Of a stretch of 64,000 bases of DNA, positions 1 through 51,622 are shown in pieces (positions within the stretch are counted from its first letter, which is position 1; each line of letters opens with the position of its first letter). The stretch comes from Cucumis sativus (lineage: Eukaryota; Streptophyta; Magnoliopsida; Cucurbitales; Cucurbitaceae). The stretch covers positions 5,084,001 through 5,148,000 of the forward strand of contig NC_026657.2 of assembly GCF_000004075.3 (NCBI RefSeq), read 5' to 3'. The position numbers and the translations under genes are program-made. The notes below the pieces were generated by a model. That model did not search any database, was not told the DNA's origin, and saw only the letters and a program-made list of their open reading frames with translations.

Positions 1-2337
1 TAAGACAATTAAAGCGATCCTGTGAAAAATGAACATAATTCAAGGATATGATGCAGGGGAAGACAATGCAGAAATTGGTCAGCTGATGTATATTCCCAAG
101 CATTTGACAACATTTGAACCTGAAATTAGACCAAAGGATCCAAAAAAAAATTATATCAATTATGAATGCTGGACCTCACACATATTATTGTTATTAATTC
201 TGTGGAGTGAGGTCGTTTATCATAATTTATCACACACATAAGAAGAACATGCCATACCTGTGAAGTGATGCTTTTATGAGTGTGAACAACTCCTTTTGGT
301 TTACCAGTTGTACCACTAGTATAAATTATCAATGCAGGATCATCACCTTCACATTTGAAATGAGAAATAAAAGACATGTTTGATGGGTACAATCCATAAG
401 TTTACAAAGCAATTCAATCCGCTATCTTACTCAAGTTCTCTACTGTCCCCTGAAAAACTCTATCTGCATCTGCTGCATCTACTTCTATATTGGTTGATTG
501 ATCATGAGAGTTTCTTTCTGAATAAATATGAGGAACAGGTGGAATAAGAGAAACTGTTGCAACTGTTTTAGCAGCAACACTTTGCATAAATTCAACATGA
601 TCTTCAGTACTCAGTATCATGGAGACCTCCTACAGTCAAGTAAACTGTTAAATACTTCTACAACTTTCCTCACACAAAGGGAAAATAGAAATAGATGTTA
701 AGATGAACTAGTCAAAGTAGAATTTTCCAGTAATAAGACATTAGAAGGGAGAAAAAGTTATGAGAGGGTAGGCAAAACCAAACCGAATCATTCAAGACAT
801 GTAAGAGCTCAGCCTCTGGATAGCTGAGTGCAAGTGGAACAGCAACACCTCCACTAAACCAAGTTCCCAGCACTCCAGCAAGAAATTCAGCCGAGGGTTT
901 TGCTACAATGCCAATTTTTGCTCCACCAAGATGCCCATGACCCTTCACATCATTTAATAAGATTATGAATCAATTAAGTGATTCAAAGTGGTCGAAAAAG
1001 CGATAATGGTACACTTCATCATACTTCAAAAAATGTAGCAAGAACTAAAAGTTTAGTCATCCCTCGAGCACTGAAACAATTATTTAAATGGTGCAATGAA
1101 TCCATTAGTGACATTTTTTTCTGGAATAAAAAGGAAATTACATTTTGAAGTTCAATATCAAACCAAGTCAACATTCTGCTTACTACAATCTCATGACAAA
1201 AACATCAATTAGACCTTCTGCTTGCTATAATCTCATAACAAAATCACGTACAAATATACCAAGCAAACGCCACAGTATCAAACTAAAATATCCAGTTTTC
1301 ACCATATAAAGTAGACATACAGTTCGTAGATCACTGCTAGTCAATAGATCAGATATCTTTAGTGCAGATGAGATCAGTTGTATGTAACTATGACTTTTCT
1401 GGTTAGCTCTAATAGCAACATTCTCACGGCAAGTTGCCCCATGCTTTGCAGCTGATTTGACCACCTCCATGAAGGTATAAGAACTTAATACTGCATAACA
1501 TGAGAAGGAAATAATAATCAGAATAAGAACATATATAACAGTTAACACGATACTTTTATACTTCCAATTGGTGGAACCTAATGCATGTCATGTAGAACTT
1601 CATTCAGATTATTACAAAACTAGCTCCCGGAAGTTCGTTACTAGCTATAAATTTAACAGAAGAAATGCCATGGTGGGGTTTCAAGCTATACATTCATGAA
1701 AGCTAGCAGAAAGGTGATCTTCTACTATGCTCTAAAGATCCCGGCCCACCACGCAAGGTAAGTGAGAGGGAACCATAATGGGATCAATCGTCATGACTGA
1801 AGGAAAGGTCTCAGAATCAAGGAGATTGTAATCATTGACTAGTAGCAATGGCATGATTGAGCTTCAATTATACATTCTAGAAATCAACTAATTCCACCCC
1901 AAGTAAAAGTCAAAAGATACAACTACTCATCCCAAAAACATAAGAACAAACAAGCCCAACTAGCTGGTGACAGAGTAGATGAACAAAACAACTTCAAAAA
2001 CCAAACCCACATAAGAACAATGGAAAATAAATTTCCAATCAACTATGTAGAGAAACTTTCTAAATGACCCAGAAACCAAAAATTAAAAAAAAAAGCAAAA
2101 CAAATTTCCCATCATTACCCATCTTTTCATGATTTCCCACAATAAACAAACAACTAAAAAGGAAGAAAAGTCACCTGAAAACAACCGAAAACGTGAAAAA
2201 CAGAACTTGGGAATGCTCTTCCCAATACAAAAGCAAGCAGAACTCGATCGAATGGCAATCAAACGAGAAGAGGGAAGTGAAAGATGAGAGATACGAGTAA
2301 ATAAAGAGGTGGGGTTATTAAATGTAGAATAGTTCAT
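1..2337 (-). CDS. AAE13: Malonyl-CoA synthetase (malonate-CoA ligase), 5' part, gene cut by window edge
   Basis: Acyl-activating enzyme that joins malonate to CoA using ATP. Exons, all on the minus strand: 2337-2175, 1490-1321, 942-784, 629-431, 346-258 and 119-50; the rest lies left of the window. Phases close through 283 residues. The AMP-binding P-loop [11 protein letters not shown] is at residues 239-249, and the stretch [13 protein letters not shown] matches Arabidopsis AAE13 as remembered. Residues 1-61, from exon 1 plus seven codons of exon 2, are rich in Ser, Arg and Phe with no acidic residue, as in a mitochondrial presequence. A second Met (residue 62, codon 1470-1468) begins the conserved body, so a cytosolic form from that start is plausible; dual targeting of AAE13 is known in Arabidopsis. 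The last visible exon ends inside the conserved PLHH(VHG) motif at a U12-like ATATCCTTG donor. Identity is confident; the first-exon start is less so. Confidence 0.9.
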
Positions 2338-12929: not shown

Positions 12930-14600
12930 TTATGAGCATGCTTGTTCAGGGCGTTGTTTGCCTATGGCCGCATGCCAAAACATTCTCAACCTGCCTTATC
13001 CTTTATGTTTTGTATTTAGTTTAGTTTAGTCCATTGTTTTCCTTTTGCTGTTGTTGACCTTTGGGTGTGACATTTCGCACTTTTCCTATGTAAGCATGTC
13101 AAATCTAAATATGTTTAAAATGTACTATAAGGGAGATCCACTAGTTGAATCCCTGACCAAGTTTTGTCGTACTCTTTGCAATCTAAGCTTTCTTTGCAAT
13201 TGGCAGTCTTCAATGATTTTTTCAATTCTTTCTTTCTCTCTCACGTTTTATAAACACAATTTTCTCTCAAAACGTGAAGGAAAGCTACATAATATCGTGA
13301 GTTTGCTTGCAACTTTCAGATTTAGTACTGCTAACTTGTTCATCGAGGTAAGACAAGTGTCTCACAATCGTCTGTCCCATATCTGAAAGGTCGAGATAAT
13401 GACAAGCGGTATTGAAGCTTTTTTATCTCCTTGGCTAAGTGAGACACAATTATGTCGACAATGAAACAACTTTCGAAGTAGCAATTTGAGCCATTGACTG
13501 GAATTTAAGAGCAATTCTTGTACATGAGAGAATTGTCAAACGAAGTAAGATTTCTCTAGACTCGACTGACTGAGTTGGATAAAAAGGTTGGAGCACATTA
13601 GATGCATTAAATGCCCAGATAGACGGACTACCTGTAAACGAATTAACGCTAATGGTTGATTCGATAGAACATAAAACCGCCCAAGCAGTTAGTTTTGAAC
13701 TTGAGAATAGTTCTTCGAATTCTGTTACACACATGGAAGAGCATGTCAAAGAGCTTGACTATTCCCATAAGACCATGCTAAAGTTGTTTAGCGATCTGTC
13801 AGACGACTTTAGAGCCACGATAGAGACAATCAAAACCAAAATGGTCGAGATGAAAGTGCAAGTGAATTTAACGATGTGAGCACTAGCAAACCAGATTTCG
13901 AATCAAGCATGTATTGCTTCGTGGAAGTTCAAGATCCTGAAACCCAAAGCCTTCAATGGGAACCTCGATGCTAATGAGTTTGAAATTTTCATCTTTGATA
14001 TGGAACAATACTTTAAGGCCAGTGGAACCAACTTTGAGGAAACTAAGGTGACATTAGCCTTCATGCATCTGTTTGATGATGCAAAGCTTTAATGGAAGTT
14101 GAAAGTTAACGACGTCCAAAATTGTCAATGTAACAATACTTTAAGGAAGAACTAAGAGCTTAGTTCTTTTTTGAAAATGTTGAATTTATTGCAAGAAGCT
14201 AGAAAACTGGGGGAACTTAGACACGGGGAACCATAAGAGACATGTCGAAAAAGCATAAAGTATTGTGCTTTGTAGAAGGGCTCAAGTTGTGGGCTGAGAC
14301 AAAATTATATTAACAAAAAATTCAAGATCTTGCCTCTACTCTTGCTACAGCAGAGAGATTATTTAACTACGGTGGCGACCAAGAGTCTTAAAAGAAGAAT
14401 GTGACAACACTAAATCTCGAGAATAGCGTCTTCAAGCCTAATTATGCAAGAAACTTCGCATGATAAGAAATCGTAGACCCTAAGCACTATTCTCCTCGAG
14501 GAGCACATAAGTCATGTTCGAATCAGACAAGACCTATTTTTTGCTTATTGTGTAAAGGCCCCTATCAAGTATCTGAGTGTCAATACTGGGGATCGTTGAC
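12930..14600 (+). mobile_element. Ty3/Gypsy retrotransposon fossil, gag part
   Basis: Broken remnant of a Ty3/Gypsy LTR retrotransposon. Bases about 13640-14480 still read as gag: a coiled start, then a stretch resembling the retrotransposon gag domain (PKAFNGNLDANEF, DMEQYFKASG, then a DAKLWWK-like block), and near 14540-14580 a zinc-knuckle-like remnant (FCLLCKGP). Upstream, 12930-13400 may be a leftover LTR or leader, but no paired repeat is visible. Protease, polymerase and integrase of this family are not seen. Many breaks; old. Confidence 0.7.
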
Positions 14601-15055
14601 AAAATTATAAGATCTTAGTACATGATCCATGATCGTGTATCAAATCTAAACGATCTTGGTTCAAAATCTGTAGCAAATATAAAAGATCTTGGTACACGAT
14701 CTTGAATAAAAATCATTTAGATATTGGCACACAATCGCGTACCAAGAGCTAAACGTCGTGTACAAAGTCTAAAGGATATTAGTACACGATCTTGTACTAA
14801 ATATAAATTATCTTGGTATAGATCTTGAACCAAGTTTGTTTAGATTTTGTACACGATTATTTAGCTCTTTGTATGTGATCGTGTATCAATATCTAAATGA
14901 TCTTGATTCACGATCGTTTAGAAGAAGAATTACACGCGCACGTGTGGTCAATGTTGATACTACCTACACGATCGTATATCATTTCATACATGATTGCGTA
15001 TGAGATCGCTTAGAAGAAGAATTACACACGCCCGTGTGGCCGATTAATCGTGTGT
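14585..15055. repeat. Degenerate array of 'acacgatc(g/t)tgta'-type units
   Basis: Words such as gtacacgatcttg, cacgatcgtgta and aaatctaaacgatcttgg recur about a dozen times. Many contain the palindrome cacgatcgtg. Near 14920 and 15010 there is a near-identical pair ending in gtttagaagaagaattacac and gcttagaagaagaattacac. The array lies directly between the Gypsy gag fossil and the Copia fossil, so it may be a non-coding internal part of one of them. Confidence 0.6.
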
Positions 15056-23647: not shown

Positions 23648-23740
23648 GCTAAGTGACTATTAAGATTGTAATTAGGTCGCTAAGTGACTATTAAGATTGT
23701 AATTAGGTCGCTAAGTGACTATTAAGATTGTAATTAGGTG
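23648..23740. repeat. 31-bp tandem repeat, three copies
   Basis: The unit beginning gctaagtgactattaagatt starts at 23648, 23679 and 23710 with no visible differences between copies, so it is recent or homogenised. It lies between the CACTA element and the MULE relic. Confidence 0.9.
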
Positions 23741-34510: not shown

Positions 34511-36525
34511 AGTGAGACACAAGCCAAGTGCAAGGACAATTATATTTTATACTACACGAACAAGAAATGGATGAGTAGTACAAAAAAGAATGCCCCACAT
34601 TAATTAATACAAGAGAAATTCTGTAGAAGAAAATTTGAAAGGTTTAATAATAACTTTTTTACAACACTTTAAAAGTTTATTTTAGAAACCTTTTAGGACA
34701 AAGAGTTGAAATAAAATAGAATTTGTAAAAAACCTTTTTCTTTCAATCTAAAGAAACACCGTAAATCAATGATCAATTAAACTATATATTTGGATTGTGA
34801 ATATTGTTTTTTAGAAAAAGAAAATCAAAATTGATACACATAATTCCTTCTACTTTTTGTTTTGAAGAATTTTTAATCCACAAAATAATAAAACATTTTA
34901 AGGCCTATTGATCAAATTCAGTAGTAGAATAAATCAATAAAACAAAGGTCCTAATGATATCATCGGCAATGCAATTAAGTGCGGAATAATATGTGATGAG
35001 ATGAGATGGGGGATGGGAAGCATAGGAAGCATAGGAAGCATAGGAAGGAATAAAAGGATATTCTCCTCTTCTTCTTCTTTTTTTTTTTTTTTTTCTTAAT
35101 TCAAGATAGTAATATTACAAAAGAAAATAAAAATGAATAAATAAATTCTTTTTTTAAAAAAAGAAAAAACAGGTTGTGGCAACGTGATAAATTAAGATTA
35201 TTAGTTTAAGTATTTGAATTTTGAATAAAGATGAGTGTGGACAAACAACACCTAACTGTTTCTGAAGGTACTCAAAATTATACTCTCTAATTTGTCTTTT
35301 TTCATCTCAATAATTGAAAATAAACAACAAAATTTGATACATTATTTTCCCTAAAAATCTTATATTATTTTAATTATATAACAATTCCCTACCTTTTATC
35401 TCTTCTTCACCACCACAATACTGTTTGGAGACAAAAAAAAGTACAATAAAATCATCCAAAAGGACTCCCCATCTTCTCAACAAATTTAAAAGAAAAACAA
35501 AATAGATCAAGAATTAATGATATAATTTTCTATTTGATTTAATTCTCAACTTTTAAATGTTACAAATGAGATGAGAAGATTTAAACAAACATTGTCAATA
35601 GTAATCCATTTTTAAAATCCTATCTTATTAAACTCAACTTATAAATGCATTCCTACTGCATAAAACAATGAACGAGTTTATATTAAATAATAAAATAAGT
35701 TATTTTATTTACAAAATATAGGGATGAACGTTGAAATTTTGAGTGAGAATAAAATTTTTAACATTTATTATTTATTGTTTGTAAAAAAAACATGGCAAGT
35801 AAATTCAAATGGATTTGAATAATGGAATAATCCATATGACTTTATTAAGAAGTTTACAAAAAAGAAAAAAGAAGATGAAGGGCAATATAATTCAATATTA
35901 TGAGGGGGAGAGGGGTGGGGGGGAGAAAGGGATAAGTAAGGTAGGGGGAAAGTGACAGATGTTATTGGCTTTGGCTCATTTTGTGTTACAAGTTAAACAA
36001 CACAGGTTCTTTGAAGTTTCCTTCTTTTGTTTTCATTGATCACAACAATGTATATCATAATGCATCAAAACCCCATTTGTTTCATACTCATCTATTCCCA
36101 AACCAAAATACTCCACATTCTTCCTCTTCCTTCTCTTTCTATACAAACACTATTATAAATGGTCATCACAATGCCTACTTCTCACTTCCGTTACCACTTT
36201 GATGATACATGGCCATATAACTCAATAAAACATGGAGTTCATCAAATACTATTTTAGTCTTTGATGTACTTTAATACTTTCCATTGTCTAATTGTTCTTT
36301 AAAAAAATGTTATCTATTAATTACCATATCTCTGTGTATTTTCATTCCTAACATTTAATTTGTTTTCTATTGTATCTTGCATTTACTCAACATTAAGGCT
36401 CATCTTAACACATTATGAGTGGCTAAGGTAAGTTTTCTAACTCAGGATAGGATTGAAATTAAACCTATATTGTATATTTGGCTTGAGACTTGGTTTTTAG
36501 TTTTCATTATTAGTGAGTACTTGTT

Positions 36526-36629
36526 GATTTTGTACTGTTCTTGAATGAATATATACTTCAATTTCATGCTTTGAATTGATTTTGTACTGTTCTTGAATGA
36601 ATATATACTTCAATTTCATGCTTTGAATT
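36526..36629. repeat. Perfect 52-bp tandem duplication
   Basis: The unit starting gattttgtactgttcttgaa begins at 36526 and again at 36578; the two copies look identical, so the duplication is recent. Confidence 0.9.
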
Positions 36630-42709: not shown

Positions 42710-42714
42710 GCGGG

Positions 42715-42757
<43 letters not shown>

Positions 42758-42782
42758 GCGTGTTCGATCCACGCTCACCGCA
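42710..42782 (+). tRNA. tRNA-Phe (GAA)
   Basis: A 73-base cloverleaf with the intact A-box region (TAGCTCAGTTGGGAGAGC), anticodon loop CTGAAGA with GAA, and the T-arm GTTCGATCC. The anticodon stem (CAGA/TCTG) and the T stem pair well. The acceptor stem has one G-A mismatch at the fifth pair, which I recall is usual in plant nuclear tRNA-Phe. A T-run (ttcttttt) follows directly and should stop RNA polymerase III. No intron. Confidence 0.97.
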
Positions 42783-51550: not shown

Positions 51551-51622
51551 CGCCGTCTGTGGGGATCGAACCCACGACCACGTGGTTAAAAGCCACGCGC
51601 TCTACCACTGAGCTAAGACGGC
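51551..51622 (-). tRNA. tRNA-Lys (UUU)
   Basis: A 72-base cloverleaf on the minus strand: acceptor GCCGTCT paired with AGACGGC, D-arm TAGCTCAGTGGTAGAGC, anticodon stem CGTGG/CCACG around CTTTTAA with anticodon TTT, and T-arm GTGGGTTCGATCCCCAC. Discriminator base G. A T-run (ctttttatttt on the minus strand) follows and should terminate polymerase III. No intron. Confidence 0.97.

Follow-up and report, generated by a model that had tools for sequence, protein, structure and literature searches.

A probable U12-type AT-AC intron in a malonyl-CoA-ligase-like gene of cucumber

We analyzed a 64,000-nucleotide stretch of the cucumber genome (C3:5084001-5148000, hereafter the window) and find that a segment at its left edge is very probably a U12-type intron of the AT-AC subtype. 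The segment, intron 6 of a minus-strand gene encoding a malonyl-CoA-ligase-like enzyme, runs from window position 49 to -52 (contig C3:5083948-5084049), is 102 nt long and is 68% A+T. Its first 49 nt occupy window 1..49 (minus), and the other 53 nt lie to the left of the window edge, ending at window -52 with 0 counted. An earlier note made from the letters of the window had interpreted the segment as a U12 AT-AC intron, and the sequence evidence set out below supports that interpretation.

The AAE13-like gene

The genome that was searched comprises 226.6 Mb in 88 contigs, of which C3 measures 40.9 Mb. Because intron 6 lies at the left edge of the window, the adjoining C3 sequence to the left was read as well. 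Manual placement of the minus-strand exons, guided by open frames and splice signals, gave a model of 17 exons that extends from window 2337 to -4542 and holds 1833 coding bases including the stop, for a product of 610 residues. On the minus strand of the window, exon 1 (2175..2337) runs from its ATG to the donor GTGACTTTT, and exon 2 (1321..1490, donor GTATGTCTA) contains an internal in-frame ATG. These are followed by exon 3 (784..942, donor GTTTGGTTT), exon 4 (431..629, donor GTAAGATAG), exon 5 (258..346, donor GTATGGCAT), and exon 6 (50..119), which encodes 23 residues plus the first base of the following His codon. The earlier note had read the other five in-window donors of this gene as GT, which they are, as are the ten donors beyond the window. 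Fifteen of the 16 modeled introns are GT-AG, and the sole exception is intron 6, with AT-AC.

The 610-residue product matches AMP-binding PF00501 at 250.7 bits and AMP-binding_C PF13193 at 62 bits, both above the Pfam cut-off and both over the full or nearly full profile length. Every one of its five top PDB matches is a malonyl-CoA ligase or a chimera of such a ligase. Among NCBIfam models, the best is PRK07787 acyl-CoA synthetase (365.8 bits) and the second is malonyl-CoA synthase (356.6 bits), each below its curated cut-off (575 and 558, respectively). Judged from these matches, the gene product is an acyl-activating enzyme whose nearest relatives among solved structures are malonyl-CoA ligases.

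The exon 1 leader contains Ser and Arg and, judged by eye, resembles a mitochondrial presequence. Together with the in-frame ATG of exon 2, it would permit products with and without the presequence. Mitochondrial and cytosolic forms of AAE13 are described in Arabidopsis (PMC5441920), and the mitochondrial form is reported to be essential there (Guan and Nikolau 2016, as described in PMC5441920). We use the name AAE13 because of the malonyl-CoA ligase match and because a leader exon with an internal ATG fits these two forms. In these two respects, its best solved relatives and its two possible starts, the cucumber gene fits the published description of the AAE13 malonyl-CoA synthetase from Arabidopsis and petunia (PMC5441920).

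Splice signals of intron 6 and the minor spliceosome

The intron is bounded as ...CTG CAT C | ATATCCTTGA ... TTGATGTTAACTAGTAATGCAC | AT GTT CAT GGG. It lies in phase 1, with the cut inside the codon for residue 284 of 610, which is the second His in LPLHHVHGL. Bases repeat at the two ends, so four cut positions (CA-CA, AT-AC, TA-CA, and AT-AT) yield identical mRNA, and among these AT-AC is the only accepted terminal pair. The donor had been placed directly after ...CTG CAT C, with an 8/9 match to ATATCCTTT; minus 49-41 indeed reads ATATCCTTG, preceded by ...CCC CTG CAT C. When the sequence was read leftward, the predicted AC acceptor was present as ...GTTAACTAGTAATGCAC|AT GTT CAT GGG CTG, where the Val codon is GTT and not the GTG that had been predicted.

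The putative U12-type 5′ splice site ATATCCTTG (41..49, minus) agrees with the consensus ATATCCTT / RTATCCTTT in 8 of 9 positions and is exact over the 8-base ATATCCTT, an element described as nearly invariant in minor-class introns (PMC2831892). Scored against TATCCTTT at +2..+9, this donor matches in 7 of 8 positions and the 15 other donors of the gene in at most 5 of 8. The 8-base element occurs six times, the donor of intron 6 included, among 127,983 places on both strands of the window.

The branch site is less clear. A site had been predicted 10-15 bases before the AC acceptor, and the distance part of this prediction stands: TTAAC ends 11 nt before the end of the intron, with 12 nt following its second A, and the optimal branch-to-acceptor distance is given as 11-13 nt (PMC3584512). 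Agreement with the consensus is weak, in that the branch region GATGTTAAC has only the TTAAC core, matches TTCCTTRAY in 5 of 9 positions by a by-eye count, and falls outside the ten best matches listed. ATTGTTGAT, 17 nt from the intron end, matches in 6 of 9 positions, and 6 or 7 are reached elsewhere in the intron, at other distances from its end. Two further signals were considered and rejected. The duplex of U12 with the branch region (-4.4) gives no support to the site, because 59% of 1193 flank windows equal or better it. An absent pyrimidine tract does not discriminate either, as the 52% pyrimidine of the last 25 nt of intron 6 falls within the 44-80% of the gene's 15 GT-AG introns. Pairing with the donor is possible for both the U11 5′ region (-5.7 kcal/mol) and the U6atac 5′ region (-5.5 kcal/mol), values that carry no chance control.

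Components of the minor spliceosome were sought in the same genome. Rfam models detect three of the four minor snRNAs, with one match above the cut-off for U12, one for U11, and 12 for U6atac, and with matches in 0 of 14 control genomes in each search. Two of the U6atac matches are strong (≥91 bits), and the ten weaker ones (33-62 bits) may be pseudogenes. The U4atac model had no match in the genome, nor in the control genomes. No match to the U11-48K zinc finger was found in the genome with a model of 25 positions that matched one archaeal control. DIM1-family exons occur at three places. A 53-residue frame comes from one of these, on contig C7. At E up to 0.001 all of its PDB matches are TXNL4B chains, and because of this a DROL1-like factor is probably encoded in the genome.

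An intron can have AT-AC ends and still be removed by the major (U2) spliceosome. A few AT-AC introns are major-class, and the weak branch site of intron 6 would suit such a reading; none of 85 major AT-AC introns or related subtypes responded to the loss of CENATAC (PMC8280824). However, the donor carries the full element that is near-invariant in the minor class (PMC2831892), its TCCTT can pair with cucumber U6atac and U11, and the 11-nt distance from TTAAC to the intron end suits the minor class. We consider removal by the major spliceosome very unlikely.

For removal by the minor spliceosome, we propose that the 5′ end of the intron, at ATATCCTT, would be recognized by U11 and the region around GTTAAC by U12, with a branch adenosine about 12 nt from the intron end. 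U6atac would then take the place of U11 on TCCTT, and the cut would join CTG CAT C to AT GTT CAT GGG, giving the LPLHHVHGL of the malonyl-CoA-ligase-like enzyme.

Protein constraint at the junction

We surveyed the stretch from exon 6 through the intron to exon 7 for GT-AG, GC-AG, AT-AC, and AT-AG junctions that are in frame, free of stops, and enclose an intron of at least 50 nt. LPLHHVHGL is present in 1 of the 63 candidates, the AT-AC pair, and is lost in each of the other 62, be they GT-AG, GC-AG, AT-AG, or other AT-AC. The earlier assertion that the motif is lost with every GT donor is true within this stretch. It had also been argued that the exon cannot read through, and retention of the intron does yield other residues, 12 in number, followed by a stop.

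Relatives of the enzyme agree with the AT-AC junction. In a tblastn search over the junction, the split His and the Pro stand at equal spacing and ungapped in 16 of 16 relatives, which comprise 15 loci of the cucumber genome and one bacterial sequence; three further rows were the AAE13-like gene itself and were left out. The bacterial relative, on a Verrucomicrobiaceae contig, is 42% identical and reads LPLHHVHGI (the one relative among 18 pattern matches in a scan of genome contigs). Three PDB alignments, each with a malonyl-CoA ligase or a chimera of such a ligase, were compared; they are ungapped across the junction, where the relatives have LPLFHVHGL or LPIYHTHGL. The statement that the family needs PLHHVHGL thus holds for the Pro and the split His, which are constant, and is too narrow for the rest, as relatives have LPLFHVHGL, LPIYHTHGL, and others.

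The junction-spanning query returned at least 36 genome matches at E up to 10, three of them to the AAE13-like gene and 33 elsewhere, the weakest of which are doubtful. Twenty of the 33 cross the split His without interruption by at least five residues on each side, six cross it narrowly, and seven do not reach it; the intron is absent from the first 20. Among the matches listed for this genome-wide query, there is no second close copy of the junction region: the longer matches elsewhere are 33-47% identical, and a few short ones at 49-52% stop short of the junction.

A junction with other ends remains to be weighed. The GC-AG pair with donor CCT|GCATCA and acceptor TTAACTAG|TAA would remove 99 nt and give LPLNAHVHGL; it is in frame and stop-free and retains HVHGL. 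GC donors usually take the form AG|GCAAGT, from which CCT|GCATCA is far removed. Moreover, the GC-AG product has one additional residue between LPL and HVHGL, where none stands in 16 of 16 relatives, and its junction piece scores 82.2 bits against PF00501, 8 bits below the 90.3 bits of the 83-residue AT-AC piece. An AT-AC donor three bases upstream gives 80.8 bits for the corresponding piece. GT-AG pairs either insert residues from the intron or cost a large part of exon 6 or exon 7. We give this junction, or any other in-frame pair that is not AT-AC, a slighter chance than removal of intron 6 by the major spliceosome.

We note that the splice motifs alone recur. A second set of ATATCCTT...TTGAC...AC lies at window 14779 (minus) in apparently non-coding sequence, where each of the three frames is interrupted by many stops; we set it aside as a chance occurrence and not a second minor intron. 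It is because of this recurrence that the protein constraint carries the case for the AT-AC junction. Given a junction fixed by the protein (four cuts), the joint chance of ATATCCTT, AC, and TTRAY at one of five distances is about 4e-7, a rough figure for which the branch motif was picked after looking. The recurring set is also what could be said for a pseudogene or misassembly in which the AT-AC match arose by chance, the least likely reading given 610 open codons across 17 modeled exons, 15 of 15 other introns with GT-AG ends, and AMP-binding domains matched to full or near-full profile length.

The set at 14779 sits in an imperfect repeat stretch (window about 14570-15050, minus) of GATCGTGTAC- and AAGATC-like units. 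Elsewhere the window holds two perfect tandem arrays (23648-23739, 31 bp × 3; 36524-36629, 52 bp × 2) and two tRNA matches above the Rfam cut-off (42710-42782, plus; 51551-51622, minus).

Comparison with known minor introns and consequences for AAE13

AT-AC minor introns are of a rare type, but numerous plant genes have been found to carry one, and intron 6 is ordinary in kind. IAOD holds 269 Arabidopsis U12 introns, 26% of them AT-AC (PMC7367187); an alternative count of 4.8% is quoted in PMC5932401. As described there, intron 4 of CBP20 is a plant U12-type intron with AT-AC ends like those of intron 6. The two are similar in A/T richness (about 65% in CBP20 versus 68% here) and in that a short length is possible (76-2733 nt in CBP20 versus 102 nt here), but the CBP20 introns are described as having a typical U12 branch point, whereas intron 6 has only the TTRAY core (PMC5932401). 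Splicing of plant minor introns can be poor: a mini-gene of Arabidopsis CBP20 was spliced at 4.77% in tobacco protoplasts (PMC5932401).

In human cells, AT-AC minor introns depend on CENATAC (PMC8280824); in Arabidopsis, they are described as needing DROL1 (PMC11039992). Intron 6 shares its terminal subtype with these A-type introns, and the genome contains the TXNL4B-like frame. Among the papers listed by the literature search, none names AAE13 or ACSF3 with a minor intron. The AAE13 intron may already be catalogued in U12DB, ERISdb, or IAOD, and because such catalogues and supplements lay outside the search, we claim no priority.

If the minor spliceosome removes intron 6, as we infer, AAE13 expression would depend on U12 splicing, as the earlier note had suggested. 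This dependence is predicted from the frame, in which retention ends in a stop: without splicing, the mRNA would encode an enzyme that lacks its C-terminal half, and transcripts that retain the intron would be non-productive. A U2-like acceptor, GTTCATTTTTCACAG, is also present within the intron (window 20-34, minus), ending 30 nt past the intron start, and could act as a cryptic site upon failure of U12 splicing.

Since the mitochondrial form is reported to be essential in Arabidopsis, AAE13 may plausibly be among the outputs of the AT-AC branch (DROL1/CENATAC) of minor splicing. Both start sites, the ATG of exon 1 and the internal ATG of exon 2, lie upstream of intron 6. One could go further and regard AAE13 as a metabolic gate: because of this position, the mitochondrial and cytosolic forms would each need the DROL1/CENATAC branch, which would in turn set a limit on fatty acid synthesis and lipoylation in mitochondria, and plant minor-spliceosome mutants would owe some of their growth defect to a shortage of mitochondrial malonyl-CoA. 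We regard this extension as unlikely.

For annotation, gene finders restricted to GT-AG and GC-AG introns would break the enzyme at its conserved LPxxHxHG stretch. With the present analysis, the cucumber genome gains one more candidate for a gene with an AT-AC minor intron. If the intron is conserved, an enzyme whose mitochondrial form is described as essential (PMC5441920) would be linked to the AT-AC side of minor splicing.
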